DNA of 64,000 nt, taken from assembly GCA_012976225.1 (NCBI GenBank), contig JAAVVG010000012.1, positions 248,001-312,000 on the forward strand, written 5' to 3'. The position numbers and the translations under genes are program-made. The stretch comes from Golubevia sp. BC0850. Taxonomy: Eukaryota; Basidiomycota; Exobasidiomycetes; Golubeviales; Golubeviaceae. The notes beneath the pieces were generated by a model that made no database searches, was not told the DNA's origin, and worked only from the letters and a program-made list of their open reading frames with translations. Below are positions 6,727 to 44,791 of this stretch, in pieces (position 1 is the first letter of the stretch; the number at the start of each line of letters is the position of its first letter).

Positions 6727-6808
<82 letters not shown>

Positions 6809-8433: not shown

Positions 8434-8464
8434 AACGCGTCCAAGAGCAACACCACCACACGAG

Positions 8465-16132: not shown

Positions 16133-18380
16133 CTCATCGAAGAGGGAGAGGGAGAGATCGAGTGCTGCGAAGTCTATCTAACTTTAGAGCAACACTGCCT
16201 GATAGATCCCTTGGCAACCTCGCAACAAGAGAACCTCTGGTTTCATCCATTGTAGCTTTTATTCCATATTCATTTGATTTCTCTGCCCTCATCGAGCGAG
16301 GTCTCTGCACCAGGTGCAGCTCTGCTGCTGTTAGGATTGTCCTCTCTGAGTTGCTACTCACTCTGGATCGACCAAAAGAGACATTCCTTCCAACCTATTG
16401 ACTCATGTAACGAGCCTGACAATAATCTTGAAGCTCTTTCTTCTATCTACTCCAATTTCTTTCCTGTAAATTCCGCGAGGGAGTTGAGAGGCTAGACACG
16501 TTGATTGGGAGCAACGAGATTCAAAATTGGCCTTCACGGGCGGACGAGTCAAAATGTTTTTGGAAGTTTTGACCGGAAATTCCAGAATGTTTCGACTTAA
16601 TAGCTCTGAGAACCTTCTCAGAACTTTTTGGAGAGGTTTTCGAGGAATCAATTTGAAAATGATTTGAGAACCTTCGTAGGACAATTTGACGAAACAATTT
16701 CCAGAACCTTTTGAAAAACTTATGTGAGAGGTTCTGAGAAGGTAACGAAGAATCTCAAATGTTCTCTTTACACTCCGAAATCTTAAGTTCTTTCAACAAG
16801 AAATCAATTCGCAGCAATTTGAACCTGTTTCATATAGCAAGAAGGGTTCGATTCACCTTTTTTTTGCCTGCGTTCGTTTAGCGCTCTGAGAGAGCCTTGT
16901 CTTCGTATTTTTCGGGTTTTCAGGAAGACTATCAAAGCAGTCTCCTCTTCCCAACCCACACCACTCAATCCAAAACTTTCATCCCATAATTGCTTCTCTC
17001 TAACAGCCCTCTTCTGCCGACTTTCCTTTTTTTCAAAATCAAATTGTCAACCGGAAATTTAATTAGTGAGTAGAAGGTAGAAGGTAGTTGAGTCACAAGC
17101 CTTTTCCTCCACCATCGTCATGCTTCCGCCGACGAGTCCTTTACTTACCATCTCTTTCTCTATCCCTCAATACACTAATTCTCTGCTGCAAAATTTTTCA
17201 ATCTCTTTTCCCTCTTCTCTTGGAACTTCCATCGACTTTGAGAGCAGATGTGTTGAGTGAGTGGATGCATTGACCTTGTCTCTCCACCTACCTTCATGCT
17301 CTCCACATGACCGCCTCCTCTCGAAAACCATTCTAAATGACTAGAAATATCTTTCTCAGACCATTGGTTTCACTTTTCTTGGTTTCGGAGCGAATTGGAA
17401 TGGTCTCCAGATTCGCCACCAACGGTCAACCCAATCATTCTTTTTCCTCTCTCTCTCTCTCTTCATTCTTTTCCCTCTTACGACCTCTCAGAAGCTTGAC
17501 CGGGTTCCTGAAAATAATACATGCCTTCCAAAACTCTGAGTATTTAGGTGGACGTGATTTGGAAAAGCAGACAGCAAGGGAATGGAAGATGGGATGAAGT
17601 CAGAGATTCAAGTGCATGGCATCAAGACGCTAGTGAAGCAGATGAAGATGATTTCTGAAGAGGAGAGATCTTTTGAATACATATCAAAGGAGAGGAAACG
17701 AAGTTGGGAGGGAGAGAAGACCAGCGTGGCATTGTCGTCACTCTTTCATTCGACGCATGCAGTCAATTTCCCTCTTATCTGACATCCTCTTTGAAACCCT
17801 CTCTTTCCTTCCTTTCCCCTCCTTTGCTCTCTGTCCTTCCAAGTCTTTTTCCTCTTCCTCTTCCTGCCCTCTTTTCTTTTCCTTTTCCTCCCTTCTCGAC
17901 CTCTCACGGTGAGAAGTCTTGGTCTCCTCCTCGCTTTCGGACTGTAGCCCCCTTTCATGATGTAACTCAATGTATGCGTTTACTTCTCTCTTAACAAATC
18001 CAGTACCTTTCTTCTAGTATTGTAGCCTCGGAATAGAAGCTCTACCAAAGCCTCAAATGCCAGCTTGAATCCTCTCTGAAGCATTCCGAAAAGGTGGTAA
18101 AAGCATTCTGAGCAGGCTGCTGGGAAGTTCTCAAAACGGATTCTCAGAATGTTCTAGGAAGGATTTTGTTAGTCCGGGGAAACATTTTTTCAAAACTTTA
18201 AAACGTCTCGCCGTGTTCTCTTCTCTCTTCCCACTCACCCCTCAATTCAAGTCACTCGGTTGCTGCAAGAATTGTATTTGAGTTTGTTGTAAGTAAGGTA
18301 GACAGAGCAATTCCAGACTAGCAGCTCATCCCACTGACCATCCGGACCGCTCTCCTTCCGTGCAGTTCCGTCTTAAAGAC
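16133..18380. other. Intergenic region between SIN1 and an F-box relic
   Basis: About 2.2 kb without a gene I can support. It contains a cluster of GAA/TTC inverted motifs (16,560-16,760, separate entry), a smaller one near 18,140-18,165, and C/T-rich runs at 17,110-17,950 that open several low-complexity frames. The first few hundred bases probably hold the SIN1 promoter. Confidence 0.45.
16560..16760. promoter_or_regulatory. Cluster of heat-shock-element-like GAA/TTC motifs
   Basis: Within 200 bases there are several alternating GAA and TTC triplets with 2-nt spacing: ATTCCAGAAT, CTGAGAACCTTCTCAG (a perfect 7-bp hairpin stem), TTTCCAGAACC and GGTTCTGAGAAGG. This is the layout of HSF binding sites (nGAAnnTTCn). 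It lies about 430-630 bases upstream of SIN1. A decayed inverted repeat is an alternative explanation. Confidence 0.35.
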
Positions 18381-19490
18381 ATGACTTCTGAAATGAACCT
18401 TCCCTCCGACCTTCTGGCTCTAATCTTCTTCTACTTGAAATCTCTAGACATAGTTCGCTGTAGAAGAGTTTGCTCTCTGTGGTTGAACGTCATAGACTCG
18501 ACCACAAGCCATTTTAAGATCCTAGAGCTTCCAGAGAAGTCCATCAAAGAATGGAAGATTTCAATAAATTTCTTTAATCAGAAGTCTCAAAATCAACTTC
18601 AAAAGGTTTCTCTTCCATCCAAGCTAGTAATAAATGTACCAGAAATGACCACATTCATCCATATTCTAAGCAAATCCAAAGCTACTCTCTCATCCCTCAG
18701 CCTGTCCCTACCACATGCAGGAGCAGCCACTGAATTCTTCAAATCCGTTCAAAGCCCTTTATCTCAATTGTCAAGTTTGTCGATAAGATTTTCTTCAGAT
18801 TGGGCTGGACTAAATGCCAGAGTTTCACTAATGAGAATCACTGAAGGCTCTCTGTCTTGACCTTCATGTTCATCCGAAAAGCCGTTGGCTTTCCTCAGCT
18901 TGACGGGTTACAATAATGCGCGGAACGCAGGACGTGTGTGGATTGGCTTACCAAAACTCCTAAGTCAACAGCCGACTCATCTTCACTATAGCAATATATT
19001 TACACCACCTGCAACGCCTCATGTCAGTATGCCTTCTGTCAAAGCTTTGGAGTTTGCAATTCCCCAAAACATTGCTCTATTAAACTATCCTCATCTCAAT
19101 TGTTTGAATTTTCATAAAGCTTTCGGCTAGCCAATTACTTTACCTTCGTCAGTCGAGGAATTTTGGCTTTCATCCTATGAAGGAGCTTCTTATGACATGG
19201 TAGAGTGGGAGAGCTCTTCATTATATTTTAGAGGACCTCAACTGAAGACTATGAGATTAGATTCTACAATATTATTTTTCAAGCCTCACCTACTTATTTA
19301 AATCTTGGAAAAGAGACTTGAGAAGGTTGAGGAAGGATTCGAAGTTGACGGAATCAAAATGGTTCAGCTCGAGAAGCTCGTCATCTCAAAGAAGCATTTT
19401 GGGAAGAAGGTTATTTCTCAACTAGAGGAACTTGTCGAAGAGGTGGTGGATACTAAGGACGCTCCGGATTATTGGGAGTTCAAGATCTAG
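18381..19490 (+). pseudogene. F-box protein gene, disrupted
   Basis: The ATG at 18381 opens a clear F-box: NLPSDLLALIFFYLKSLDIV followed by RCRRVCSLWLNVID at residues 6-38, which in other proteins binds Skp1 in SCF ubiquitin ligases. Leucine-rich text follows (SKATLSSLSLSLPHAG, SPLSQLSSLSIRFSSD) to a stop at 18860. Homologous-looking text continues in a second frame from about 18,850 (KALCLDLHVHPKSRW) to 19,490, interrupted by a TAG near 19,130 and a TAA near 19,302, and ends PDYWEFKI. One frame change plus two stops suggest a decayed gene rather than introns, because no good splice sites bridge the breaks. It belongs to a different subfamily from copies A-D. Confidence 0.65.
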
Positions 19491-20343
19491 GTTCTAGGTA
19501 AGTCTTGGATCTTGACTAAAGACATGGTCACAGGTCGCCTCCCTTTTTTTTCGATCAGCATCGTTCTCAATGAAAGGAGCTATTTCATGTTCTCGAATCC
19601 ATCGAAATTAGAATTTGCTACCGCTCCACTACCATTGAACAACTCGAGAATCGATTTCATAAGACTTCTCTTGGGATCAAACAATCTTCCGATGTACTGT
19701 TCTTACATTCTGGATGGATGCAAATTGTTCTGATTCCGAAAAGGATGAGACAGTGATGATCGATGTGATGAGGCGATGAGTGATGGAGTACACATGGAGT
19801 GATCCCGTGCTGAGCTGAGGCTCAAATGGAATCTTTACACACACTTAGGCTAAATGAAGTCCTTCAGTAACTTACTTTCGAGAAGCACATGCTCTCTCAC
19901 AAAGATGTTTAAGAGAGGATGACTGAAGGAAAAGAGATGCAGCCGCTAGGTCAAAGCTATACTTACAGTTCTTTTCAAATGGATCCGTCCATCGATAGAG
20001 TCTCGTAATGAACATTGGTGGTTCAACCGGCAGATGGCATCCGGGAAGAAGTTCCGAGTCTTCTAATGCCGACCAGACCCTAACCTCACTCCTCACTAAT
20101 AGATCCAAAGTTTCTCAAATCACTCAAAGTTAGTTGAGGGCTTGAGCCCTTATGCGCATATACCTCAACTTTCAATCATTCTTCCACAAGTGGTATAAAT
20201 GAAGCCTACCTTGGGTGACAAGAGATTCCTCACCTTCGTCGCCTCTTACTTTTCTTTCTTCTACCTCTTCTCTCGTAGCCGGTCTACCTTAACTTTTTCA
20301 ACCCCTTTTCAACACTTCCTTTACTCAAGTCCTCTTAACAAAG
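19491..20343. other. Intergenic region before the small secreted protein gene
   Basis: About 850 bases. A 73-codon frame at 19512-19733 starts at TTG and shows no recognisable motif, though it may be a tail of the preceding F-box relic. The final 100 bases are C/T-rich and probably the 5'UTR of the next gene. Confidence 0.4.
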
Positions 20344-20856
20344 ATGTTCATTCAAGCCAAAGTAGCCACTGCCGTCCTGATGGCTTCAACTTTTGTTGCC
20401 TTTGCAGCAGCTCTCCCTGCTTCGGTGAGTGTTCTTCTGCCTGCTGGCCTCTTCCTTTACTGAGTCCTCTCTTCTTCCAACCCCAAAGGATCCTGCGGCC
20501 ATTGAAAACAGGGCTGCCGACTCACCTTCTGCGTCTGACAACTGGTTGGATGCCTATCAGCGTGATCTTCAAGGTGGCGCTGTCGACGACTTAGAGGCGA
20601 GAGGTAACACCAAAGGCAGAGCCCACATCGCTTGGTGGGCTATCAAAGAACTTCTTTGCCCCAAATGTGGTAGTAAAAGAGATGTCGAGGAAGTAAGTCT
20701 CGTTCTCTGCCGATTTGAACTTGCTTGCTTCCCTCACTGACTACTTCTTCTTCCCGGTTCCATCCTCTTCTCTCCTTCTCCACAAAGGAGGTTCTCATGA
20801 ATCTCTTTTCCCGTGCTATCGAACAAGACGCTGATCTTTTGGGACTCTTGTACTAA
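20344..20856 (+). CDS. Small secreted protein, unknown function
   Basis: Three exons (20344-20424, 20489-20692, 20788-20856) give 117 aa. The ATG opens a textbook signal peptide, MFIQAKVATAVLMASTFVAF followed by AAALPAS, with likely cleavage around residues 22-24. The mature part is acidic and then basic, with WLDAYQRDLQGG, a single CPKC pair and possible Kex2-type sites (ENR, EAR, SKR). The tail is amphipathic (VLMNLFSRAIEQDADLLGLL). Donors are GTGAGT and GTAAGT; both acceptors are AAAG. I do not recognise a family. Size and layout fit small secreted or kexin-processed fungal proteins. A role in host interaction or as a peptide precursor is speculation. Confidence 0.7.
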
Positions 20857-20935
20857 TGTTTTAAAACTCTTATAGAAGAATCTGCTCTTTCATTCCCCCA
20901 ACTAATATTTTGAAACTCTTGTAGGAGAAATAGTC
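20852..20935. repeat. Imperfect tandem duplication after the secreted protein stop
   Basis: ACTAATGTTTTAAAACTCTT at 20,852 recurs as ACTAATATTTTGAAACTCTT about 49 bases downstream, each followed by a purine-rich AGAAGAA/AGGAGAA stretch. It lies in the 3'UTR or just beyond. Confidence 0.55.
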
Positions 20936-21871
20936 TAAAGTTTTTGAGCTGTTGAACATTCGGAAGGATGATTGAACGATGATTTTCTGGGTTAGAAGGA
21001 GCTGTAGAAGTGGCAGGACCCGATAAGAGCACACCATTCTCTCTTCAGGATCACTCTGGAGGCTCGTCACTATCCCTAGATCCTGATGTTAGACTGGTCG
21101 TCTCACTCGGAGATCATCAAGACTGAAAGTGATCGTCGATTATTTGACAGCCAGCCATCTGCCTTTCGCAGTCCTTCTCTTGACCATGCGTTTGGTTTTG
21201 GGGGATCGACACGCAGCACTTTGTAAGCAACCACACCCACAAGACCCTAAGACAAAAGCCCAAACGAGATGCGAGGGGGATCCTGGTGAGAAAGTTGGGA
21301 AAAAAGTCTTTTGTGCGGTGAGGACAGATCCTAAGATAATTCCCCTCCTTTCGATTCGCCGTCGAGGAAAGACTCTACAACTTTTGGCTTGAGCTTGACT
21401 TACATAGAAAGATTTTACGTATGTGTGTGTAAACGCTAAGATTTTACGTATGTGTGTGTAAACGCTCGAGAATTTCTATTTTCAGGTGTCAAGTGATGAC
21501 GAGTTGGAATACGCGCTCGACTTGGAGACTCGATCAACACTCTTCGAGGTTTCTTTCTCGCCCATTCTCCTGCTCCTGATCCTCATCCTCCCCCCCCCTT
21601 TCCTCTTCTTTTTCATCCTTTTCTTCTTCTCCTCCTCCCTCTTTTCATTACCTCTTCTACGGCCAGGCGCCAACCTTTTTGCCCAAAATTTCAACCTTTA
21701 ACTTTTCAAACAACACCAACAAACGACACCTTGAAGGTCAATCAATCATAATCCCTTTTCTCTCCTAAATCAAAAAAAGACTCCTGTTAGATCTCTCTTC
21801 TTTCTTTGATTAGAATAGAAGAAGTAGGTCCAATTGGAAGGCAACCTTTTTATTATCTTCAACTTTGGATC
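20936..21871. other. Intergenic region before the large membrane protein gene
   Basis: About 0.9 kb with no gene I can support. It contains a 29-bp direct duplication (separate entry) and ends in a long C/T-rich tract (21,560-21,680), probably promoter and 5'UTR of the downstream gene. Confidence 0.45.
21410..21466. repeat. Perfect 29-bp tandem duplication
   Basis: The unit AGATTTTACGTATGTGTGTG plus TAAACGCTA (21410-21438) is repeated directly at 21439-21466. It carries an internal TG-rich core. Two copies only; no function evident. Confidence 0.9.
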
Positions 21872-24800
21872 ATGAGTAGTAGTAGTCGTAGTTCAACAAT
21901 CAACAACTCAAAACCACGTTCATTCAAATTAAGAAAATCAGCAAGTAAATCAAACAAAAGCAACGTTTACATGAAATCAGCCAATAAACATCTCAACATG
22001 AACAGTCAGATCAATCAAGGGAGAAATGTTGAACAAGAGATGGTGAATTCAGATTCAGCCATTCCTTCTTCTTCTAACGACTGGGAATTGAGAGGTGAGA
22101 GTTCAAAGAATGCTTTAATCAGACAGAAAGCAGAACAACAGCAGAAGGAACTCAAACAGCGAGAGGGAATGGATGTTGGTAGAAGGAGGCAAGCCAGGAT
22201 TGATCTATCTAATGCTTCTCAGGATCATATCAATCAACTTTGGAAAGGTTTACCAAAGAACATGATTAACAGAACTCCTCTGGTAGTCAACAAGAAGGAA
22301 AGGAAAGTCAAAGTTGCCTCAACTTCAACTTCAACCACCAAGAAGCACCAGCAACAGCACCACTCTAGTCATCACAAACCCAAATCTTCTTCTTCTTCTT
22401 CCTCCACTCCACCTTCTCATCACAAGATCTCTTCATCTCCTCTGAAGCAAGGAGGAAAGCATTCAAAGCATGCCCATCCAAAGAGAGCAGCGGAAGACGT
22501 TCAGACCACTCAAAGAGCTTCAGCAGCTGGCAAAGCAGCCGATTTCCAACTCTTACCTTCAAGTGTTTTGGTAGTTCATTCCTTTGATGCCGCCGCATCA
22601 AGACCGACTATTCAATCATCAATTGAAAGGGAATCTGCAAGTGGAGGACAAGGTCATGGTTCTCTCTGGTCCTCAATAGCCCCCGTCTCTTCTTGGAATT
22701 CTGCTCGAGGAACTGCATCAATTCTAGGAGGAAACAACTTTGAAGCTGCTGCTATCATTACTTCTCAAACCACTGCTTTCCCATCAAGTCTCAACTCTCG
22801 TCATCACACTGCTAGTCCAACTGTCAACGCAAGAGCCTCAAGTGTTGAAAGTCCATCTTCAACTTCTTCTCCATCGACTTCAAACTCTTCCGCTCATTTC
22901 TCACTTCCACACAACACTCCAATCTTGGTCTTCATCGTTATTGGATCTGTGATTGTGGCAGCAACTTTGCTAGCAGGTATGGCTTGGTTGTGTAGATGGT
23001 CTGGGAAATCCTCCTCTGAGAATCGTAGGAAGAGAATGAAATCTTCTTGGAGTCCAAGTGGAAATTCAAGTGTCTTTGAAGTTCGTGATAAGGACGTCTC
23101 TATGGATAACAGTCCGCTTCCAGATCTAATTCACAGGAACTCTAGGAAGGGAATTCAAGATGGTCAAGTAGGAGGAGTTGGAGGAGCTGAAGGTTACCTT
23201 GCACCAATTCCAAGTGGTCAAGGATGGACTCTATTCGACAGACCAGTTCCAAAATCAAGCTCAATGGGTGCTCTAAGTAGAGATGCTTCTCAACTTTCAA
23301 ACGAGAGGATGAACCTTTCAAAGGATTTCGAAGAAGTGATTGGAAGTGGGGTTGGAGGAAACTACTCTATCCCAGCTCCAGCTGCTGCTTTGATGGATCA
23401 AGATGTAGATGTCGAACAATCGATTTGGCCACCTCCAGCTAGAAGACCTTCTTTCATCGAAAGGCTAATGGCCTCAAGACCTAACTCGACGCTTCCAGGT
23501 CAAGTCTCTTCAGATCATGAATATCAACAAGGTGGTCGAAGAGCTGTCTCTCATGGTCTTCCAGGAAATGACGATGTAGCTCCACCAGCTGCGACTGGTT
23601 TCAACATCACAAGATCAAACACTATGACTCAATCTCAATTAAGTCGCTCTATCTCTTTGAGTCGTAGTCGTTCGAATGGAGCTGGTTTGGGATCTGGATC
23701 TGAAAGGATGTCAAATTTCTCTCAGAATGAGCCTAGAAAATCAATCATCCAAGCTTCAGCCAGTGTCGGAGATTTCAGGAAAGGACCTTACCCAACTATC
23801 AGACCTCTGCCAGGATACGGAATCGACACTCCACTCTTCACTCATCCTTTCTCTCCAGCCAATCAAATGAAAAACTCAATTCCAGCCAACAAGAAGTCCA
23901 ATCTTTCAAACGGTGGAGTCTTCTCTTCTCTTTCGATCTGGAGAAACGCGAAGAATGAGAGGAATGGAGAAGAATCCGATTTTGAAGGTACCATCGGAGG
24001 AAAGGACAGGGATCTTCCAAAGGCTAGAAGATTAGGAAAGGGTCAAAATCGTTTCCCAGTCTGTGAAGATACGACTACTGAAGAAGGTGGAAGCTATACT
24101 CATGGAACCCCTTCTCCAAACCGTAGACGTAGCAGCATCATTGAAATGGGAGATCCTTACCAACTTCAACAACCTTCAGCTCCATTCCTAGTCAACGGAA
24201 CTCCTAGAACTCCAGGTTTAGCAGGAGTCGGAGCAGCTAGATTATGGGAGGAGATGGAAGTTCAGAATTGTATGTTGGCTCAAGCTAATGCACCTTTCGG
24301 TTCGGGACCAGTTCATCAATCAAACCAAGGTCAAAGGTTCGATTTGGACAACAGAGAAATGCTTTCTCCTCTAGCTAGAGCTGTCATCCCAGGTCAAAAT
24401 GGTGGTTTCAATTCAGGTTCTCTTCCAATCTCTCAAGCTAGAATCGAGAATCAAGTCAGTCAGAACCATCTACCTTCAAATCTTCAAGTCTTCGAGACCT
24501 TAAGAGCTAGACAAGCTTTGATCGAAGCCAAGGTTGCCAAGAATGAGATGATTCCTGGAAAGTCAAACGATTATCCAAACCATCCTAGAACCAAGCTTAA
24601 TGAGAAGATTGCAAAGTGGTGGGCCGTTTCTAGCCTAGAAACACCTTCTCCTGTCTTGGAACAAGCTGAAGCTGGAAATTTCAATGATCATTTAAGTCCT
24701 CTACCGGAAGTAGCTGTCAAGAGAACTAGTAGACAAAGAAAGGAAGTCACTAGATCTGGGAGTCAAAAGGTTCAATCCATTCCAAAGTTAAGAAGAATTC

Positions 24801-26103
24801 AATCTGAAGGTTCAATCGTTAGTGAAGTCACTTCGATTTCTGCCGTCGAGGATTCTGATTTAAAGAACCCTTACCTAGGAAAGCAACTTTCAATTAGATT
24901 TCAACCCAAGCAACAAGGAAATGGGCAAGTTCTACTTTCTCAAGAATCTTCTGATGATTTGATCGCTTCTTATAATCAATTGACCATTCAAGAATCAGAT
25001 GCTGAATACTCTTCTCAAGATGAAAAAGATGCTACCATTTATTTTGGAGAATTACCTCAGTTGGATATGACCAAAGAAGTTGGTGAATTCCAAGTTCAAA
25101 CTTTAGAAAAGAAAAGAAAACCAAGAAATAGATCTAGACGTTCTTCTAGAGCAACTACCAGAACTGAAAGTTCTTTACCTCCTGCATATAGAACTGAAGG
25201 TTCTGAAGAAAGTGGTTCTGAAAATTTAGATCGTTCAAATACTATTGGATCAAACACTTCTTCTTCTCTTAACACTTCTACTACTGAAACCTCAATCTTT
25301 GATCAAGTCGAAAGAGCTTCTAGAGAGAGAAATACTGCTGAAAGAGCTGCTTTGGCTAATCAAGAATGGGGAGTTGGAATCGATGAGAAAGAGTCTAAGA
25401 AATCTTCAAAAAGAGAACAAAGAAGAAGAAGTAGAGAATTGAACATCAAAGCTGCTAGAGACATGGTGGATGGTGATGCTAGTATCGATGACCTCAATGT
25501 CGCTGAGTTGCAAAGGTGAGTTACTCTTTCAATGTTCATCATGTCATTTTAATTTCGTAATTTGCCCCCTGACATTCTTCCCTACTTTCCCTCTCTCGTC
25601 TTCTCCCATAATTCAGCCGTCGTCACACCGTTCTAAATATGCCAGAAGATCTACAAGCAGCCGAACGTTCAGTAGCTCCAATTCGTACTGGATCCAACGC
25701 TTCTTCAATCTATTCTTCAATCACAGCTCCATCTGAATATTGTGCTCCGTTGTTCTCTAGAAAAATCTCTTCAAAACCTCAATCCCAATCCAAACATCTT
25801 CAACTTCCAATCTTAACTTCCAAACCTGGTCGTCGTTCAGTTTCAACTTCAGCTTCAATCAAAATCCCAATCGAAATCTTGTCTTCGCCAGATTCTCCTT
25901 GGTCATCTTCTGATTCAGAAGTCTCCGTGAGAAGATGGTCTTCAAACGCTTCTTCGGAAAGAGGTCAAAGACAATTCTTGGTTGCAAAGAAAAGAGATGT
26001 ATCAAGAAATGTGGAATCTTTTGAAACTACTCAACCTCTTAGAATCGTCTCGGCTGGAAATGTTCAGAAGAAAAAGAACCTGATACGTTCCAACAAACAA
26101 TGA
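21872..26103 (+). CDS. Large single-pass membrane protein, unknown
   Basis: Two exons (21872-25515, 25617-26103; GTGAGT donor, AATTCAG acceptor) give 1,376 aa. I chose the first ATG in frame (MSSSSRSSTINNSKPRSFKL); the extension upstream has only a TTG. Residues about 1-345 are basic and Ser/Thr-rich with a His-rich stretch (KKHQQQHHSSHHKPK). A single hydrophobic segment at about 349-376 (TPILVFIVIGSVIVAATLLA, then GMAWLCRW) is followed by basic residues, suggesting a type I-like anchor with a cytoplasmic tail of about 1,000 aa. The tail is Ser/Pro/Arg-rich with RRRSS-type potential phosphosites and a basic SKREQRRRSRELNIKAARD helix near the end of exon 1. No signal peptide is seen. The topology resembles fungal cell-wall stress sensors, but that is only an analogy. 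Confidence 0.8.
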
Positions 26104-26410
26104 TCTGGTCCCCTTCTCAAGTTTCTTCCCCCCCCCCCTTTCTCCAACCCTTTCCCACTCTCCTCTCCTCTCCTCTCGGATAAGTCCAGTCTCATCAAAA
26201 AGCTTGTGAGCTCTGCAAACACCCACACTCATTTAGTACCATCTATTGTTTTCCCCCGTTCTAGTTTCATCTCATTTCCCATTTTGTTGCCTAATACCCC
26301 CCTCTCGCTGCTCCATCGATATGTTGATTTTCTTCTTTGGAATAGTTTTACTCTTAGAAATGTTTTGCTTTAATTTTCATTTATTTGTTTGTTCGTCAAC
26401 TCTTTCGCTC
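26104..26410. other. Intergenic: 3' end of membrane protein gene to the inverted repeat
   Basis: About 300 T/C-rich bases with a C-run near 26,130. Nothing recognisable. The left arm of the inverted repeat begins sharply at about 26,411. Confidence 0.5.
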
Positions 26411-27285
26411 AAACCTTCAAAGGTCTATCAATGGTCAAGCAGCTAGCTCTCAGACCCGTGATTGTCTGGGATGATGGTCCCGTCAACAATAGAGGATGGA
26501 AAAGATGGAGAGGTGAGAACAGTAGCTTGGTAGGAGGGAATCTGGAGACAGCAGCAATCTATCACTTTCTTCTGGTTATCAACTCTCTCGATTCTCTGGA
26601 GGTGCTAGGTGGAGATGCAACTACGACCTCTTGAGCAAATTCAGCGGCTCAACTCTCATTGGACTTTCTGTCAAGTCTCTCCAAGTCTCGCACTTCAATC
26701 AAGCACCTCCGACTCCTCCAGTTCACGCCCTCAAAGGCCAACAAGCTGTACAAGTATATCTCCACCTTCAACGCGCTCAAGATTTCAAGTCTGGGCCATC
26801 TTGGTCTGACGGAGATGAGGAGAGGTAAGCAAAAGGTACCTCATGGTTGAGTGTTGAGGTGTCGGTGTTACAGCATTCCTTGTTCGTTGTATCTGATCCA
26901 GCGGATGATGACTTCGAAGAAGAGATCATGCTATCGAATATTCTCTTTAGCAAGACACTTCCGAACTTAAAGGAAGTGGTGGTTCCCTCTAAGCCAACCA
27001 ATCAAAGTTCTCTAGAGGCGACTGATCTACGCTCACTCAAACTTTGGAAAGAGGCAAGGGAAGTCTTGGAAGGAATTGAGATGGTCAAAAGTGGGAAAGT
27101 CAAGCTGAGAACTTTTGAAGTAGGAGAAACAGGTGAGTGAACTGAAGAGCTTTTGATTTACCTGAAACCAGCTAAGAATTCCATCTGACCTCGATCTTCC
27201 GTTTCTGGCCCTCCCAGTCGGCGATGAATCGAAAGGAGAGAACTGTCTCTCAACTCTCCCATGGATGCCTCCTTTCCCTCAATGA
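26411..27285 (+). pseudogene. F-box/LRR-like family, copy B (5'-truncated)
   Basis: This holds only the 3' part of the family gene. It begins in exon 2 with the FKGLSMVKQLALRP region, followed by NNRGWKRWRGENSSLVGGNL, continues through several frames, and reads DLRSLKLWKEAREVLEGIEM up to a GTGAGT donor after GAAACAG at 27,133. The short last exon (VGDESKGENCLSTLPWM) ends FPQ-stop at 27285. The start of the gene is missing, because homology begins exactly at the repeat boundary at 26411. No intact product is possible; it is a fragment carried on the inverted-repeat arm. Confidence 0.7.
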
Positions 27286-27601
27286 TGAACCCTCAATCGA
27301 GAAGGTCAACTTCAGAAGTCGCGGATGCCACTTCTTTGGAAGAAAAGGAGATGGAACCAAGGGGTGGCAGACGAAACAATTTCAAAACTTGATGAGAAGG
27401 AAATGTCCCGATCCTTGATCTTGTAAGGGCACTCTCCAAATTGGATGCTTCTTCATTCAACATCTGAGGCTTTCAAAGCAACAGCGCAAGAGGAATGAAA
27501 GCGTATTTGCTTTTTTAGAAGAAGGCAGCATCTTTGCTTGAGCGGAATTCGGTTTGAGCTTGTCTCCAATCGACTCTATCAGATTTTTGATTTGGAGCCC
27601 G
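26411..27601 (+). repeat. Left arm of a 1,191-bp near-perfect inverted repeat
   Basis: Position x here matches the reverse complement of position 60442-x throughout, with no length change, so the partner arm is 32841-34031. By eye the arms differ at only two adjacent bases near the outer end (CAATGG here, CAAACG in the partner). Coding-like, intronic and 3' flanking parts are all identical. Both ends are abrupt: the outer end at AACCTTCAAAGG, the inner end at TTGGAGCCCG. The 5.2 kb between the arms carries the dolichol kinase gene. Confidence 0.95.
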
Positions 27602-27943
27602 TCTCTACCATCTGTCAGACATATGCAAAGGGACGGATGGAGAACGGATAGACAATCTGACTCGAACCCAACTCCTTAGATGCTTCAGATCTACGCGTGA
27701 GAAGTCAAAGAGTCTTTTACGTCTTTGCAATTGAAACAAGGAAGAAGTTGTTGGATTGGGATCATTGAAGTTTGAGCGAAAAATAATTTCAAGAGTGGGG
27801 TTCCAGATTGAACGAAAGGCAGAGTTAGAAAGAGAAGTAGTGTGCAAAAATAGAATGGTACAGTTTGGTTTGGGTAAATCTAGAAAATGGTGTCGACTGA
27901 GACCTTGTCATTTTTAGACGGAGCAGAGAAAGAGATGAGGCTA
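27602..27943. other. Spacer between the left repeat arm and SEC59
   Basis: About 340 unique bases containing the 3'UTR of the dolichol kinase gene (minus strand). A small open frame at 27,605-27,847 (minus) shows no domain. Confidence 0.5.
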
Positions 27944-30900
27944 TTAAATCTCCAGTAATGTTGCAAGGATTGAACCGAAAGCTGGTAAGACTAAGTTGTC
28001 ATTCTGAGCTGAAACACCTTCTAGAAGAGCTAGAATAGCGATGAGAACTGAATATCGCACAAGCTGTGGGATTAGAGAGAAGAGACGAGACGAAATTTGA
28101 AAATGAGCACGACTCCGGCATCTTTTTTAACAAATTCCTATTGTTACTCACACTGAATTGTTCGACGAAGCCGAAGATCCTTAGCAGCCAAGCACAGAAC
28201 ATGATGCTAGACCAGAAAGCCAGCGTGCCCTCGACGGTTTTGCTTCCAGTCCACCATTTCTTTCTTCCGTACCTTCGACCAACGATGCTAGCCAGCGCGT
28301 CTCCGACTCCTAGGACCAGAACCCCAGTGAGTTGAATGATGATTGATTCACCTTCCAGCCATAAGGGGCCAGCACAACCAGTCAATAGGTAGAAGTGAGA
28401 CAGAATCACCGGTCCAGAGTCTTTCGAGTCCAGGAATTCCGAGAGGAAGATGTGAAGAGTAGCGCCGAAGGGGTAGAGAGCGTAGTATCGAACGTATTCA
28501 CCAAAGATGAACAGTGAAAACCCAAGCGAGAAGGCCAGATGAGTGAAGGCGGGCTGTGAGAGACAAAAGGAAAGGGACGACTACAGATTAGCTCAGGTGA
28601 CGTAGAAACAAAAAAATTGGTCGGCTCTACTCACGTCGAATAGAATCCCTGGAACAAACATCAGAACTGCCAACGCATGGAAGAACTTTCGCCTCGCGTT
28701 CAAGCTCAGATGAGCAGCTTTCTTCAAGTGAGAAGAAGAGCCACTGTGGCTTTCGATCGGATTGGGAGTGGTAAAGCTCAAACCAACAGGAGTTGATTGA
28801 ATCGGAGGGGATAGAGGAGTTGAGACTGCTGGCTGATTCATCAAAGCCGCAGAAGGACTAGAAAGATTGGAAAGGTCACCAAGTCCAAGAGAGACGGAAG
28901 TGGTGGTGGAGCCAGCTTGAGAATGCCTTGAATCTACGATTTCCATTCCAGCTTGACCATTTCCATCTCCTTCGGGTGAAGGAATAGCAGAGATCGAATG
29001 AGGACTTGGAGGGACTTGAAGATGATTTAAATTTCGATTGATTGAAGTGACTGGATTGATCTTAGAATTAATTCCGTTTAGATTCATGTTCCTAGCACTT
29101 CCAGCTCTCAATTTGACTCTCTTGTTTCTGACTACGACTGTTTGCCAACCTATGACGCTGATTGAAACTAGACCCAACCAATAAGCCATCAGAAGAGGTC
29201 TAGACCATTGATATTTTCCCTCAACTACAAACATGGCTACCCAAATCCAAGCATCTCTGTTTCCTAGGAGCCATCTGACCCACATTCCGAGAACTCCAAC
29301 TACGAACGCAGCTGCAAAGAAATAGAAGAATCCAGCCAGTAGTCTTCGATGAAGATCTCGTTTGGCTGGCCATCTTAATCGATGAAGTGGCTTTTGAGCT
29401 AGGTTTCTTGATAGGTAAAGCAGCGGAGAGAGGAGGAATCCGATCATGAAAGTGCCGACTACTAAGGCGAGCTGAAAGATTACTAGAGGAGTTGGATGTC
29501 TGAAAGTCTTGACGTAGTCGGTGGTGAGTGGCCAAAGCTTCGCTATCGTCAGATAAATGCTCTCCATTAGAAGTGTAACCCCTAGAGTGGCTACGATGGC
29601 TAGTTCTCCTAAAGTAAAGCTTCGTCTAGCTAGTCTCGAGATCGTGTAGAGGTTTAGTTGATAGACTAGAGAGGCGGTGAAGAGTTCCCACCTCGATAGA
29701 CCTGATTTGGATGAGCAGCAGAAGAAGAGAAACACAAAACATCAATGCGTGCACCTTACATCAAACCCAGTTTCTCGTGATGTTGACTCACCAGTCCAGA
29801 ATCCGATTCCAAGAAAGCTCGATCCTTCTCTAATAGTCTCCATTCCCATCACCAAGATCAAGCTAAAACCAAAGAAACTTCTCATTCTCTTCCAATTAGA
29901 TTTGTCGAATTCACTTGGCTTCCTAATCCATTTAGTTGCTAATAGATGGGCCAACAAAGCCGTACTCGTAAGACTTTGAATAGTAATTAATGAAGCTCTA
30001 GCTAAAGGTAAAGGAGGGAAAGGTAAAGCTCTAGAATGTAAAAGTATAGGGTTTTGAGGTGGAAGTAAGAAAGCTTGAGGTAGATTACTTGAGAGAGGTT
30101 GAATCGAATTCTTAACTTGCTCAAAAAAAGAGCTTGAAGTTGGAAGAAGCATCGAGGGTGATAGTCCACCTACTGAAGGTAAGGCGGCGAAGAAAGAAGT
30201 GCAAGCTAGAAGAGGACCGAATAACAATCCATAGAGCACACCATCATCTTGACAATTTCTGTAGTTCCTTTCGTCTGTTGCCCAGATAGCGTTGACTTCC
30301 ATCTTGTCTCTTTCTTTCCCTTTTGAACTGCTGTGACTGGAAGGTCCGCTGGAATTGGCCCCTTTTCTATCTCGTTTCTTAATTAACCAATAAATTGTCG
30401 AACTGACTGCTACCCAACTCAACTCCAAAGCGGCGGAAGTCATCACTTTTCCCATCTCTGTATGCCTGCCTCCTACGTTCGCCATCTCTCTCGTAGAGAG
30501 CCTGTAGATGGCATAATAAGCAGGAAGAAGAAGAATCAGACCCTCCAAGAATGAAGATAAAGTGATTCTGAAGGCGGAAGTCTGGAGGTGAGAATGAAGA
30601 GATGCTCTCAGACGAGTCCTCTTCCTGGAGATCCTTGGCGGTGGACGTCGAGTTGAGAATGATTGTGAAGTAGGAGAAAGAGGCTGAGAAGGATTTGATG
30701 CTGATTGCCTTGAATTTGAGGTAGTTGGGGATGGTGGAAGTTGAGAGGTACCCTTTCTGGGCGAATGTCTGAGATCTGAAGTTGGTATCTGTAAGGTATT
30801 AAAGTGAGGTTTAGATTCGCTTTCACCTTCTCTCTTTGAGGAGTTCCTGAAGCCTGGTGATCGAGATCGTGGTGGAAGTTCTTCTCCTGTCACTTCGTCA

Positions 30901-32495
30901 TCTTGAATTCCTCCCTCATCCTCCTCGACTACCTCTTCATGGTTAGAAGCTCTTCCTTCCTTCTTGAACTCTCCTAGATCTACATGGGACAGTCTTGAAG
31001 ATCTTCTAGGTTTGCTTGAAGCCTCTCCACTACTGGATCCAGTCCCATCAGCCGGTCTCTTTCCTCTGCTCCTGTCCGAGACTTCTTCTGGGCCACTAGA
31101 GCCATTCCTGAGAGTAGGAGCAGGACTGTAGCTCCTGATCCTTCCACCTGAAGATTCGAATTCTTCGATCCTAACAGTTCCAGCGCTACTTCTTCTGGCT
31201 TCTCGAGAATCGTTAGGGTCGGGGCCGAGTAATTCTGAAGAGAGCATTCCGTTAGGTAGCACAGCCCTCAGCCTGGCTCTGGTAGCGTCACTGAGACCGA
31301 AATTGAAGGAAGATCTTTTGGCAGGACCACTTGAACTTCGAGAAGGTCGATCTGCGTCTCTTGAGGAAAATCTTCTTAAACCTTTGGAGATAGGTGATTG
31401 TTTCGAGTTCGAAAGAACTTCATCCTCTGAAGCTGAAGGTAGGATTCCAGTATCTAACCAACTAGGTCTCTCTTCATGATGAGAATCGAACCTATTTGAA
31501 TCTTGATCTAATTTAGAGGATGATCCAGAGATTCTAACCTTGCCATCAGAGATATCAGGAGCAGAACCTCTCCTCCTTCCTAGGGAGGCGAAATAACCTC
31601 CGGCTCCTAATTTTGATACATCAAATGTAGCTCTCTTTTGGTTGACTTGAGATTTTTGTCTGTGAGTTTCTCCACTTCCAGTTCCTGAACCATCCGGGTT
31701 CAAATTTCTAACACTATTCCTACCAGATCCACTACCACTACCACCACCTCTTCTATCCCAATCGAACCTTCTACTTGCACCACCACCACCTTCCTCACTT
31801 GTAGTTTGATTCAACCAATCATCTTCACCTTCTTCACTTGCAGTAGTTTCATCTTCTGAAAGAGTTGCATCATTTCCAGCTCTACCATTTGAAGTGGCTC
31901 CACCTCCAGAAGAGGAAGGAGGGTAGTAGAGCTTTCTACTATAATTACTACTTTTGTTCTTCTTCCTGTTCCTAATGACGTAATGATCTAATTCAGAAGA
32001 AGAAGATAAATCTAAATGAGAATCTCTATCAGCTTCAATTCCAGCAGAAGAAGCTGTATGAGATGAAGAGATGATAGAAGGAGTTGGAGATGGGTAGAAA
32101 TGAGGTGCAGTTTGAGTAAAGTAAGGTCCAGTTTGAGGATTCGGGTTTATACTTGAAATTGATGCAGTTGGTGAATTCGATGCTCTGGAATTGGTTCGAT
32201 TGGGTAATCTGTTGTAGGTATTTGCAGGTGCAGGTGCTGCGCTGTGAGTGGATTCAGCTCTGACTTCCCTTTCCTTCCTGGTCTCACTTCTTTGCCTTGT
32301 ATGATGCTTTCTAGGTAATAATGGATCGAACAACTTTGAAGAATAAGGGGTGGGAAGTAGTTCCCTATTGCGATTACTGGTTTGAAGAGTTGAAGACCCT
32401 GAAGCTGAAGCTGAAGCTGAAGCTATTGCCTCCTGACTAGTCGTCTCTGTCTTTCCTGGATTTGAAATTGAATCGTTTGACCAACTGGCTTGCAT
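27944..32495 (-). CDS. SEC59: Dolichol kinase with a very long N-terminal extension
   Basis: Phosphorylates dolichol with CTP in the ER membrane, supplying dolichyl phosphate for N-glycosylation, O-mannosylation and GPI anchors. Four minus-strand exons (32495-29792, 29701-28635, 28553-28152, 28063-27944) close in frame as 1,430 aa. Family signatures: SLNARRKFFHALAVLMFVPG at about 1240, GDALASIVGRRYGRKKWWTG plus SKTVEGTLAF at about 1340, and the C-terminal EGVSAQNDNLVLPAFGSI. More than ten hydrophobic segments occupy residues about 635-1430. Residues 1-630 are Ser/Arg/Pro-rich and lack hydrophobic segments. Yeast Sec59 is 519 aa, so the extension is striking, yet it is in one uninterrupted exon with the first membrane segments. 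The whole gene lies between the arms of a near-perfect inverted repeat. Confidence 0.93.
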
Positions 32496-32840
32496 TCTGC
32501 AGTAAAGAGGAATGGATATTCAACGCATTCGCTGAATCGATGTTGCAGTTCTTAGAGCTCCAACAATCTCATCTCAAATCCGTTGGCATCTTCGGCTCAC
32601 GCTTCCGCCCGAGAGACCCCTTGTTTTTTTTTTTTCAGAACTTGGAAAGTGGTGATCAAATCTCATAAGATGTCATTGAAATAATTGGGAACAAACTTTT
32701 AGAACAGATGAAAAAAGGGGTACAGTGTCGTTGGAACAAAGCTCAAGGAGGAGTTCCTTTAGAATTGACCTGATCCTCTTCTTGATTCCCGCCACCCCCC
32801 AAATCTTTGCATCTGTCAAGATCTGTCTACGGATATCTGT
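32496..32840. promoter_or_regulatory. SEC59 promoter region inside the inverted repeat
   Basis: About 345 bases between the SEC59 start codon (minus strand) and the right repeat arm. It contains a T10-class run near 32,624 and no other feature I can name. SEC59 therefore has at most about 345 bases of unique upstream DNA before the repeat. Confidence 0.5.
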
Positions 32841-34031
32841 CGGGCTCCAAATCAAAAATCTGATAGAGTCGATTGGAGACAAGCTCAAACCGAATTCCGC
32901 TCAAGCAAAGATGCTGCCTTCTTCTAAAAAAGCAAATACGCTTTCATTCCTCTTGCGCTGTTGCTTTGAAAGCCTCAGATGTTGAATGAAGAAGCATCCA
33001 ATTTGGAGAGTGCCCTTACAAGATCAAGGATCGGGACATTTCCTTCTCATCAAGTTTTGAAATTGTTTCGTCTGCCACCCCTTGGTTCCATCTCCTTTTC
33101 TTCCAAAGAAGTGGCATCCGCGACTTCTGAAGTTGACCTTCTCGATTGAGGGTTCATCATTGAGGGAAAGGAGGCATCCATGGGAGAGTTGAGAGACAGT
33201 TCTCTCCTTTCGATTCATCGCCGACTGGGAGGGCCAGAAACGGAAGATCGAGGTCAGATGGAATTCTTAGCTGGTTTCAGGTAAATCAAAAGCTCTTCAG
33301 TTCACTCACCTGTTTCTCCTACTTCAAAAGTTCTCAGCTTGACTTTCCCACTTTTGACCATCTCAATTCCTTCCAAGACTTCCCTTGCCTCTTTCCAAAG
33401 TTTGAGTGAGCGTAGATCAGTCGCCTCTAGAGAACTTTGATTGGTTGGCTTAGAGGGAACCACCACTTCCTTTAAGTTCGGAAGTGTCTTGCTAAAGAGA
33501 ATATTCGATAGCATGATCTCTTCTTCGAAGTCATCATCCGCTGGATCAGATACAACGAACAAGGAATGCTGTAACACCGACACCTCAACACTCAACCATG
33601 AGGTACCTTTTGCTTACCTCTCCTCATCTCCGTCAGACCAAGATGGCCCAGACTTGAAATCTTGAGCGCGTTGAAGGTGGAGATATACTTGTACAGCTTG
33701 TTGGCCTTTGAGGGCGTGAACTGGAGGAGTCGGAGGTGCTTGATTGAAGTGCGAGACTTGGAGAGACTTGACAGAAAGTCCAATGAGAGTTGAGCCGCTG
33801 AATTTGCTCAAGAGGTCGTAGTTGCATCTCCACCTAGCACCTCCAGAGAATCGAGAGAGTTGATAACCAGAAGAAAGTGATAGATTGCTGCTGTCTCCAG
33901 ATTCCCTCCTACCAAGCTACTGTTCTCACCTCTCCATCTTTTCCATCCTCTATTGTTGACGGGACCATCATCCCAGACAATCACGGGTCTGAGAGCTAGC
34001 TGCTTGACGTTTGATAGACCTTTGAAGGTTT
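32841..34031 (-). repeat. Right arm of the 1,191-bp inverted repeat
   Basis: Reverse complement of 26411-27601 (coordinate sum 60442 everywhere). Beyond 34031 this copy continues into the 5' half of the family gene, which the left arm lacks. This asymmetry suggests the left arm was copied from the right one, or from a relative, rather than the reverse. Confidence 0.95.
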
Positions 34032-34477
34032 CCGAGTACTCCGAAGTTACTCTTGTCGGCCTGCACCACCAGCTGCCGAATCTTACTACCAAACTCGAGC
34101 TCTCTTTGGAGTAGCGAGTGGATCGATTCCATGGTGAGACTAGTGAAAGTAACGCTCTGCAGTAGTGAAGGATACCAACTGGAGTAGGCGGATCTCGAAG
34201 TCGGGGCGACAGACAGAAGCGCAGTGTCCCTGAATCTGCTGTTGAAATATTTGAGAAGATCTTCAATCAGTGGAGAACGATGAAAGCAGACATGGAAGGA
34301 GAAGAAGGTCACTCACCTTCTTCCTTACTGTCTTCGCTCTTCGAAATCTTCGCCCACCTCCTCTTTCTCTGCCCAACCCCTAATGAATCCGACGATTAGA
34401 GGAACCAAGTCTTCAGGTAGAGTGCTGAAGTTTGCTGACTCCTTTCTGGAACTGATGATGGAGAGTTGTTGAACCAT
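33157..34477 (-). pseudogene. F-box/LRR-like family, copy C
   Basis: Minus-strand copy with all three exon regions. Exon 1 starts MVQQLSIISSRKES at 34477 and reads LPEDLVPLIVGFIRGWAEKE, with an in-frame TAA just before the shared GTGAGT donor. Exon 2 starts RFRDTALLSVAPTSRSAYSS and lacks about 460 bases present in copy A (between its LLQRE...QLVV part and the LEYSETFKGLSK part), which shifts the frame. The last exon ends FPQ-stop at 33157. The internal deletion is shared with copy D, so both descend from one already shortened ancestor. Decayed host gene. Confidence 0.65.
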
Positions 34478-35076
34478 GATGGAAAGGCTGAGGACGAGAG
34501 AAAGAGAACGAAAGGAAGGGAAGTGAAGTCAGATCCAACCGTGCTCTCTATGTTTGACTTTACCTGAAAAGCACTTACTATGCTCAAGAAGAATCTTGAC
34601 GAAGGAACGATGATTGACGGTCCAAAGTTGGAGAGTCAAAAAGATACAATGGTCCGGAAGGAAGAAAAAAGGAGGGTCTGAGTTTTCGCTTTGGTGCAGA
34701 ATTGAGATATTGAGAGATGTGGAACTTCACTCATCCTTCAAGTAGAATTGCCTCAGGACTCTCATCCATCCGCAAAATAAGTTATAGTCAGCGTATCGTG
34801 TTTCCTTCGATCACCAGAAGACAAAATCTTCTGATGAGGTCTCGTCTCGCAAGAGTGATTCAGAAAGAGGGAAACTTCAATTTGGATCTCACATCTCACG
34901 GATGGACAAATAGTGACTGCGTGATTGGTTTAATTGCGATCCGGGAGAATATGATACTGATACAGGATTGCTCGATTTGATTGGTGGTGATGAATTCGGT
35001 GTTCGCCTCAGCTCTCTCCATCTCTTGCTCCCTACTTCACCTCTCCCATTCCTGCTTCCTTTCCCTCCCCCAATTT
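34478..35076. other. Intergenic: upstream of copy C, downstream of ADA3
   Basis: About 600 bases. The part next to copy C is likely its old promoter; a short frame shared in layout with the copy D flank can still be seen. The rest is the 3' region of ADA3. No gene supported. Confidence 0.45.
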
Positions 35077-38000
35077 CTAATCCATCTCTAATCCCAAGTT
35101 CAGGTCAGCATAAACGTCTTCATCAGGTCGAGGAGTTCTCCAAGCATGTTGACACTTCTCGAACATAGGAGCGAAAGCGTACTTGAGTTTCCTTCTACTT
35201 TCCAAAGCTGACAACAGAGACTCTGGCAGATGAGGCTTGGAAGGTCCATGAGGAACGTTAGCTTGCGACTGTTGCTGAGAGTTCGAAGAAGATGCTCCAG
35301 CTTGATTTTGAGAAGAGGGATCTTGAGAAGCGGGAGCTGAGGTCGAAGGAGCTGGAGCTGGCGGAGGTAATTCCATTCCAGGAACTGATTTGGCACCTGG
35401 ATTGATTCCAAATTGAGGTTCAGTAGAAGAAGCTGGAGGAGCAGTAGAGCTAGTTCCAGATCCAGAGGCAGTGGGAGGTGCTCCAGTTTTCTTCTTCTTT
35501 CCCAAGCTATTCTTGATCTGTCTCTGACGTTTGTTCCAGCCAGCTTCGATTTCCTTTTCTACGGTGTTGAGACAGGCGACGTAATCTTGATAGGCCATTC
35601 GATCCATAGCTATGTCGAAGAGTCTTGCTTTACGAGCCTCGTTGATTCTCATCTGACGATGCAAAGCTCTTTGAACTGAACGGAGGGCTGCTGAGATATC
35701 ATCATCAGTTCTTGTATGCCAATCGAGCTGTGGGAGAAACGAAAAGAAGAGGTCAGTCGATCGCTCTTGTGAGGAGCGTTTTCGATACAAGAACTTACCT
35801 CCTCAGGACCAAGCACGTCTAGATGTTTCAACTCTCTTCGAATTCTTTCTTCAAATTCAACCATATCTTGACCATGTTCATCGGTTTTGATCCCCTGACT
35901 TTCTCTTTCTCTCTGTTCTCTAAACCTTTCTCTTTCCCTTTCTCTCTCCCTATCCATTCCACCGCCCCCACTCCCACTCCCATTCTGATCCATGTATTGA
36001 TTAGAGCCTTCTCTTGGGTAGTTGGACGACGCTTTGGCTGGTACCAGAGCAGCCAAGACTCTCTCGGTGAGAGGACCAGCTCTAGCTACGTCTGAGTTTC
36101 CAAGATGTTCGTCTCTCAATTGACGAGGATCGAATCTTGTAGCATCGTCTGGAGGATAAGCTGGAGCTGAGATGATCATTTGATTTGAAGATCCTCCGAC
36201 CATTCCATTTGATCCTATTTCACCAGGACTTCCTTGAGGTAGAGTTGGAGTCAGAGGGATGCCAGCATTCAGACCTAGAGGTCCTGCGCCTGAGGCAGAT
36301 GGTCGACCCCCGGGAACCAAGATTCCTGCATCTTCATCTTCCCAGATCTGTTTGTAGTGACGACCTAGAGGTGGCATCTGGAAAGGCTCCAAGTCATCGG
36401 ACTGAGATGGGACGAGGGGGAAGAAGGCAAACTCGTGTCAGTCTAGGATCTAGAGCTAGAAGAGAGTTCTCTCGACCTGGGTTGACTCTACTGCAGTTGA
36501 AGCCAAGTCTCTTCACTCACCTTGCTACTCAGCCAAGCTAGATCATCTTCGCTCAACGTCTTCAAGAATGCATCGGCGTAGTTGTAGAAGGTCGCTAGAG
36601 GAGTTTGATTCTGTTCTCGAGCTCTACCTCTTCCCACGGCAGTCAAAGGAGTATCAGCTGAACTATTTTCATTGTTTCCTTCGCTGTTCGCACCAGTGGA
36701 AACTCCAGTGATTCTAGCTCTCTCCAGCTCTCTCCAATCTCGATTTGCGAAGTCATCGTGAACTTGAGTCGGCTTGGTAGGTCCGGGAGGAGGAATCGAA
36801 GACACAGGCAGTTTCGGCGTGAAAGACTCCGGTGTTAGAGAAGGAAGAGTCCATTGAGGTGGAATGTGGATAGGAGCAGGTTTCGGAATCGGTCCTGAAG
36901 ATCTCGTGAAGGACGATGCCTGGTGGAGAGGATATTCGAAGTTGAGAAGGCCAAGGAGTCAGCAAGAGTGATGAATGATCGTGATTTAACTGTTTTGAGA
37001 TGCATACACTCACATTTGCCAAAGAGCCTGACGCTGAAGATCCTGGACTTGGAGCTGGAGGTACGACGGGTCTTGGAGCTAACTTGAGTCTCAGCTTTAT
37101 CGGACCTGAACCAGTACCACCAGAAGCAGGAGCAGGAGTAGGAGATGCACTTGAGGCCACGGCAGCTGAAGGGGCTGCTTGTTCGTTGGAGGTAGAGATC
37201 GGCTTGGAGTCTGAAGAAGTGGAAGTCGAGGGAGGAGCATTCGGGGTTGAAGTTGAAGGACCCGTAGAATAATCACGTAACTTGAAGTCTGGAAGTGGAT
37301 GAGATGCTTTTGGTTCCCTCATAGAAGAAGGAATTGGAGGTTGACCAGATTCAGTAGACGGAGGAGGAGGAACTGAATTTGAATTGGAAGGTAAACTCGG
37401 AGGTGGACTTGTAGGTAGTGGAGGAGGAGCTTGATGAGGCGGAGGTGGTGGTGGTGGAACAGATGATTGAACGAATTGCTGAGTTGAAGGATCTCCAGGA
37501 GGGAGTGGCGGTGGATTTGAAGGAGGAGGGGGAGGAGCAGGAGATCCAAGAGCTCTACTTGAGCTTCTTGAACTCCTTCCTCTAGCTACTCCAGATTTGG
37601 AATTTCCTCTTGATCTCTTGTTTCCTCTGGCTTTCCCTCCTCCACTCTGATCTGCAGTGGCATTCGTAGCAGCTGTGTCTGCGCTCTCTGCATCGGACAG
37701 AGCAGAATCTCCATCTGAGAAAGCACTCATTGCTCGACCTGATGCTCCTGCACCGATTGAAGCTGCCACTTGAGGACTTTCTGTTGAAGCTGCTGTTCCC
37801 TCTCTATCTCTCTTCCTCTTTAGATTGATCTTAGGGATTGGAGGTTGACCTTGGTTGGTCCTGCTGCTTCCTCCTGCTCCTTTTCCTCCCGCTCCTGGTT
37901 GATCTATCTCCATCGCGTCTGGATCTTCTTTGATACCCACTGAAGATGGTTCAGGAGTAGAGGCAGCACTTCTTCTAGAGGAAGATCTCTTTCCGCGACC

Positions 38001-44122: not shown

Positions 44123-44791
44123 ACTTTCATTCTGCACATCTTTGCATTTGAGGATCAATTCGACACTGAACCCTCGCTCGGGACCATTCTGCCTCGACAG
44201 GAAACTTATGTTCCAGCATTCTCTCAACTCAAATCTTTGAAATGCCTTTCCTTTCCACCTCAACATCTATCCGTTGCAGCTTCAAAATCAACTTCAGGAT
44301 CAATGTCACTTCAAACAAGCTATCCTCTCATTTCAATCGGATCTCGGTCTAGTTCTAATCCTTCCCTCCTGTCGACATTGAAACTCAAAGCGAAAATGAT
44401 CGCTGCCGTCTGCCCTTCCTTGGAGAGGGTTGACTTTGGATTCTCCGGATTTAGGAACGGCGGGGTTGCTGTCATTGAGAGATAAGGAGATAATTACAAG
44501 GAAGGAGGACTATGGCAAGGGAATAAGGAAGTCAGCGAGATTAGGTTTGAAGATGGCAGGAGTTGGGAGCGGGGAGTCGGAGGATACGAAGATGATTTGG
44601 AGCAGCTAAAAACAGAGGCACAGGAAAGGAGTGGGGATGAGATCGAAATAAGTAAAGAGGAAGTTTGCATGAGAAAGTCAGGGTTGGAGACGATGCGAGA
44701 GAAGATTGTCGAGGAGGGGAAAAGGGAAAGAGAGCTCAATCGGACTCGAAGCAAGGCTGCTGGTGTTTATGAGAAGGTTGAGGAATCATAA
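44123..44791 (+). pseudogene. C-terminal fragment of an F-box/LRR-like gene
   Basis: A plus-strand frame is open from 44,123 (FAFEDQFDTEPSLGTILP, then SQLKSLKCLSFPPQHLS) through SLERVDFGFSGFRNGGVAV to an in-frame TAA at 44,483. It then continues in the same frame with good protein texture (GYEDDLEQLKTEAQERSGDE, KSGLETMREKIVEEGKRERE) to a stop at 44,791. The leucine-rich text resembles the C-terminal halves of fungal F-box proteins. No F-box or start is visible upstream, where a minus-strand gene begins. A truncated relic with one internal stop is the simplest reading. Confidence 0.5.

Follow-up and report, generated by a model that had tools for sequence, protein, structure and literature searches.

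A recent copy-paste event as the probable origin of an inverted repeat around a presumed dolichol kinase gene in Golubevia

Introduction

Several described systems have features in common with the locus reported here. At chromosome breaks in yeast, nuclear fragments are reported to be copied, with the donor left in place, and to be joined into the break, also together with mitochondrial pieces (excerpts of PMC11724301 and PMC10802722). In Schizosaccharomyces pombe, the wtf genes form a dispersed multicopy family of patchwork genes, many of them broken, with exchange between loci, and they are known as meiotic drivers and their suppressors (PMC6526906, in part). Linked paralogs in Caenorhabditis undergo conversion in either orientation, with tracts extending into introns and with more conversion between neighbours of the same orientation (PMC3966223, in part). 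In humans, recurrent inversions are reported to be mediated by inverted repeats (excerpts of PMC3961182).

The locus studied here lies in a window of 64,000 nucleotides (bases 248001–312000 of contig C3) in the genome of Golubevia sp. BC0850 (25.8 Mb in 64 contigs). Like wtf as described in the part of PMC6526906 consulted, its genes belong to a dispersed multicopy fungal family with patchwork and broken members and inter-locus exchange; the genes themselves differ from wtf, and a clean-edged pasted copy is added. The retained donor, the possible combination of nuclear and mitochondrial pieces and the apparently end-joined junctions recall the yeast insertions. In contrast to these, the copied stretch is 1191 bp long, whereas the experimental mitochondrial inserts in the excerpts of PMC11724301 and PMC10802722 measure 22–492 bp, and the present site is natural, fixed-looking and interpreted from its sequence alone. 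As in the Caenorhabditis paralogs, conversion appears to link neighbouring copies in either orientation, but many tracts here are inverted, unlike the same-orientation preference given in the cited part of PMC3966223. Near-identical inverted repeats around genes are also found in the human case; there, the inversion was genotyped (excerpts of PMC3961182), whereas here the repeat is read from one assembly. Among the papers listed by our literature search (including PMC4469406), we recognised none on such exchange in a fungal F-box family.

Results

Geometry and identity of the inverted repeat

A sequence-only reading of the window had reported a near-perfect inverted repeat of 1.2 kb, and this was borne out. 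Arm 1 (26411–27601, plus strand) and arm 2 (32841–34031, minus strand) are each 1191 nt long and reverse-complementary, with no indels and two adjacent mismatches, and are separated by a spacer of 5239 nt. The mismatches (26432–26433, TG in arm 1 and AC in reverse-complemented arm 2) are located 22–23 bp inside an arm end, and the longest unbroken identity, in inverted orientation, is 1168 bp. With these two bases as the only differences, the noncoding parts are no less identical than the coding-like parts, as had also been noted. Outside both arm ends, identity falls abruptly to background: local alignments of 800 bp of flanking sequence revealed no homology, with scores of 24 and 22 compared to shuffled means of 21.7 and 21.4. 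The likeness of the arms is far beyond chance, since the best-scoring other genome match, among those listed, reached only 78% over 878 bp. This match contains a 338-bp piece at 99.4%, and shorter arm pieces matched elsewhere, in the same listing, at up to 91% over 32 bp. The dinucleotide ratios for repeat-induced point mutation were 0.45 and 1.50 in arm 1, versus 0.61 and 1.31 in the window.

The spacer contains a single gene model, delimited by open reading frames, on the minus strand from about 32495 to 27944 (27944–32495). From its C-terminal motifs, we tentatively take it to be SEC59, the gene for dolichol kinase. Searches of Pfam and PDB returned no relevant dolichol kinase match for it. 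The earlier statement that these 5.2 kb hold only dolichol kinase was right about the single gene model, while the name SEC59 received no support from Pfam or PDB. Apart from a 38-bp match, positions 27602–32600 had no second copy in the genome (best candidates scored, very common words skipped).

The gene family of the arms

When an arm was used as query, at least 50 genome matches were obtained, both arms included (40 of 83 candidates scored). Among the matches listed, those at other places stop by arm position 886, and the last 305 bp were matched in the two arms only. When the arm-2 query was lengthened to cover 34560 to 33000 (minus strand), homology to the family continued beyond the arm to 34522, which identifies arm 2 as the 3' part of a family copy, followed by downstream DNA. 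This gene copy occupies 33154–34522 on the minus strand, as judged from the alignment to a third family copy in the window (copy C, 45229–46596, plus strand), family matches and reading frames. Since the family alignment continues 5' of arm 2 and not of arm 1, arm 1 is a piece cut off at its 5' side: it repeats, in inverted orientation, the 3' part of the arm-2 gene and 305 bp of downstream DNA. The arms had been treated as alike; they are indeed reverse-complementary, but they are not equivalent, and arm 1 is the truncated derivative.

The mismatch site gives the same polarity. In 34 family rows, AC was present 18 times, including arm 2 and copy C, and TG in arm 1 alone; the other states were GA (9), AA (3) and TC, AG and CC (1 each). 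Over the 338 bp that were compared across arm 1, arm 2 and copy C, this pair accounts for the sole differences. TG is private to arm 1, whereas arm 2 and copy C both have AC; TG is therefore the derived state, and the change took place in arm 1.

The arm-2 gene is itself broken by a stop after ...EERRQ in exon 1. Near 34045–34053 it lacks, as does copy C, about 470–530 bp that are found in most measurable members (those with both halves matched around this stretch); one member has about 125 bp between the same points. Among the family pieces found by tblastn, stops were present in 10 of 37 for exon 2 and in 16 of 53 for exon 3. The arms belong to a dispersed multicopy F-box-like family, many members of which are broken. 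The F-box label of the arm subfamily, assigned by eye, is putative: none of 11 subfamily N-termini matched the Pfam F-box model, the spliced N-terminus of 170 amino acids had no Pfam F-box match either, and a PDB profile search of the subfamily found no F-box. DUF7730 was touched by three of the 11 members, with an E value of 0.0067 at best. Of the former description of the arms as F-box-like pseudogene sequence, the disabled gene-family part was supported, while the F-box identity was not supported by Pfam (0/11 N-termini).

Gene conversion within the family

Alignments and family matches show copy C to be a mosaic of recent patches. It lies about 11 kb from the arm-2 gene, and the two have 633 bp perfectly in common (33694–34326, minus strand, in the arm-2 gene; 45425–46057, plus strand, in copy C; 632 bp in one alignment). 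The gene sequence on either side of this tract is homologous but diverged, with roughly 52–90% identity per 50-column window. Because a perfect 633-bp tract is enclosed in longer homology of lower identity, we interpret it as a probable ectopic gene conversion tract. The second patch of copy C (44696–45430, plus strand) matches C3:132905–133639, in inverted orientation, without a single difference for at least 735 bp; the whole alignment reaches 44183 and comprises 1397 bp at 96.3%. The two patches overlap by six bases, and a third family member has 102 identical bp spanning the overlap, so that conserved sequence may have set the place of a switch. Most simply, both patches were transferred into copy C with a template switch, a direction that we infer from the sequence.

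A pair search among 33 family segments (191 kb) revealed further high-identity pairs, some of which have a homologous flank on a single side only: C3 123k/153k (1228 bp at 98.7%, inverted), C7 39k/82k (752 bp at 95.3%, direct), C3 109k/152k (654 bp at 96.9%, direct) and C3 41k/44k (192 bp at 100%, direct). Ectopic gene conversion thus appears to operate within the arm family, and the arm-2 gene takes part in it.

The occurrence of such tracts in the family would suit an older inverted duplication whose copies have been held alike by conversion, as would the position of the only two differences, since conversion should fail so close to an arm end (22–23 bp). However, diverged homologous sequence was found on neither side of the arms, where the scores were about those of shuffled sequence, unlike at the tract common to the arm-2 gene and copy C, and arm 1 would have had to begin as exactly this truncated piece. 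We therefore regard an older duplication as unlikely. The pair had been called either very young or kept alike by conversion; the first half of this alternative stands, whereas the second, conversion between the arms, is not supported by their ends, at which diverged homologous flanks are missing.

A mitochondrial fragment beside arm 1

A 38-bp fragment of mitochondrial DNA (27659–27696, minus strand) is located to the right of arm 1, at a distance of 57 bp and thus not at the junction itself. It matches C42:16082–16119, within the tRNA-Phe gene, at 37 of 38 positions. Contig C42 (52,974 bp, 34.8% GC) carries COX1, in pieces, and is therefore taken as the mitochondrial genome. The fragment was the sole mitochondrial match with E <1e-5 in the 191 kb of family segments. 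A query with 20 kb of the 53-kb mitochondrial genome found four nuclear places in 25.8 Mb, including this one, and the nuclear genome is estimated to hold ten or so mitochondrial insertions. The chance of a fragment lying so near arm 1 is roughly 1e-4, a rough value calculated after the fact, or about 2e-3 if some 40 tract ends (a guessed number) are allowed for; both values rest on the 20-kb query, and the search behind them left the queried stretch itself out of its output. The proximity is unlikely by chance, though noticed after the fact, and would point to a paste-in where a chromosome break was repaired. None of the other three nuclear fragments had a family or F-box match in the 2.1 kb fetched around it, and 30.7 kb searched at other F-box loci contained no mitochondrial fragment.

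The mitochondrial piece and arm 1 may also be separate events, because 57 bp of unexplained sequence separate them and one difference in 38 exceeds the expectation from the two in 1191 of the arms. According to the consulted part of PMC10802722, insertion in yeast is efficient at a size of 44–46 bp, and 38 bp is below this. Since the arms are identical, a later inversion would swap their inner flanks and the fragment would originally have been beside arm 2; its assignment to arm 1 assumes that no inversion has occurred since copying.

No RNA genes were detected in the window by Rfam at gathering scores or by ARAGORN, and a permissive Rfam search of 27500–28000 gave two weak matches only. With introns allowed, ARAGORN reported one tRNA-Thr in the window (48439–48536) and one tRNA-Phe at a family locus on contig C22.

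F-box genes elsewhere and control regions

The genome contains at least 150 F-box matches to PF12937 above the cut-off (150 of 390 candidates scored). Of 26 equal-scoring pairs, 12 had both members on one contig, compared to 0.87 expected from permuted contigs and a maximum of 6 in 5000 permutations. Four pairs were fetched (7 of the 18 regions first wanted), chosen for equal score and opposite strands, so that four out of four is not a rate. All four are inverted repeats: 1822 bp at 99.945% on C4, 856 bp at 100% on C44, 771 bp at 93.8% on C33 (including a perfect stretch of 540 bp), and 241 bp at 96.3% plus shorter pieces on C17. The C33 pair, whose F-box gene matches PF12937, brackets a gene for an RRM protein (RRM_1, E 4.6e-15). 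True F-box genes behave as the arm subfamily does. Opposite strands were seen in nine of the 12 equal-scoring same-contig pairs (p ~0.15, three of the 12 being one triple), and at this p value a bias towards inverted orientation is not claimed.

As controls, 38.4 kb of the window were searched (47000–60000, 6000–25500, 27602–32600 and 25520–26410) with the best candidates scored and very common words skipped. Positions 47000–60000 and 6000–25500 had no match elsewhere of at least 95% over 100 bp; the best by score were 84% and 87%, and one 82-bp piece reached 95%. The outer side of arm 1 (25520–26410) likewise had no such match, and neither did 27602–32600, where the 38-bp match was the one exception.

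Discussion

In the probable explanation, one arm belongs to the source gene copy, and the other was copied and pasted from part of this gene very recently, during break repair. The starting state would be arm 2 within a broken member of the dispersed F-box-like family. A chromosome break would have occurred about 5 kb from this gene, in intergenic DNA past the 3' end of SEC59, and repair would have copied 1191 bp, namely the 3' half of the arm-2 gene and downstream DNA. Joined in opposite orientation, the copied stretch would have become arm 1, and the 38-bp mitochondrial piece would have been captured beside it. The donor is kept in place and the insertion ends lack homology, as expected of a templated insertion at a double-strand break. 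A copy-paste origin is favoured because the arms are near-identical without outer homology, arm 1 is truncated, its TG is private and its flanks are single copy. From the sequence, we infer the break, the end joining at the insertion and the joint arrival of the mitochondrial piece and arm 1. Arm 1 fits the yeast picture of templated insertion, and the bracketing of SEC59 would be a by-product of the copy event.

Compatible with this origin, the arms may in addition serve as recombination sites, so that SEC59 would occasionally be inverted, giving two isomers. The inverted arms are identical without interruption over 1168 bp and should in principle be long enough for recombination, and the recurrent inversions reported in humans (excerpts of PMC3961182) provide a parallel. 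However, the single assembly shows a single orientation, and we consider such inversion improbable.

Also improbable is a broader reading in which recurrent copy-paste spreads both F-box and F-box-like genes along a chromosome. Housekeeping genes (SEC59; the RRM gene on C33) would thereby come to lie between near-identical and often inverted pairs that still exchange sequence and could invert the genes between them, in a recombination-driven expansion resembling that of wtf.

That the arms are a transposable element, or were carried by one as a cassette, is very improbable: the family is dispersed, but by eye no more than 2 bp are directly duplicated where arm 1 joins its flanks, the 3' 305 bp were matched in the two arms only, and the arm ends are not common to other copies. 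Neither a target-site duplication nor ends common to many copies were found, with Pfam run on parts of the sequence, in agreement with the sequence-only reading that the arms are not a known transposon; no transposon signature was seen. An assembly artefact is equally hard to credit, given the two bases private to arm 1 and several independent pairs of graded identity on other contigs.

The processes involved in the copy-paste origin proposed here are already known; at this locus they are unusually fresh and dense. It offers a natural case, at base level, of a gene fragment newly pasted beside mitochondrial DNA, in a fungal gene group in which near-identical tracts on one chromosome are common. 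It is also a warning against dating the duplication of such genes by how identical they are. With this locus, natural sequence would serve to study how break repair chooses its donor, in which orientation the copy is joined and how templates are switched.

F-box and F-box-like loci elsewhere in the genome

On contig C33, an inverted pair of F-box genes, which share about 540 bp of perfect identity, encloses an RRM protein gene (C33:656810-660182). After SEC59, this is another case of a housekeeping-like gene bracketed by such a pair. Among the matches listed, the F-box-like family had 16 places on contigs of listed length other than C3 (the contig that carries the window) and C22, and as a raw count 15 of these lay at most 100 kb from a contig end.

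Other features of the window

Adjoining the inverted repeat, an Ada3 family match (PF10198, E 3.6e-12) was found at window 35077-35652. Elsewhere, an F-box-like domain (PF12937, 34.8 bits) was matched at 18396-18503. The window also holds dispersed repeats: the MITE- or SINE-like element of about 130 bp at 48237-48371 has 11 more copies or part copies on other contigs at 85-92%, and a repeat of about 80-100 bp at 6708-6815 recurs in six more places at 88-95%. A longer stretch, window 14199-16535, matched C48:5955-8211 at 87%, with weaker extra pieces beside it.

An inverted counterpart of copy C

Copy C, the third family copy in the window, and the DNA following it (window 44183-47883) matched C3:129918-134152 in inverted orientation at 96% and 81%. 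It looks as if the younger patches of copy C sit on an older inverted duplication.
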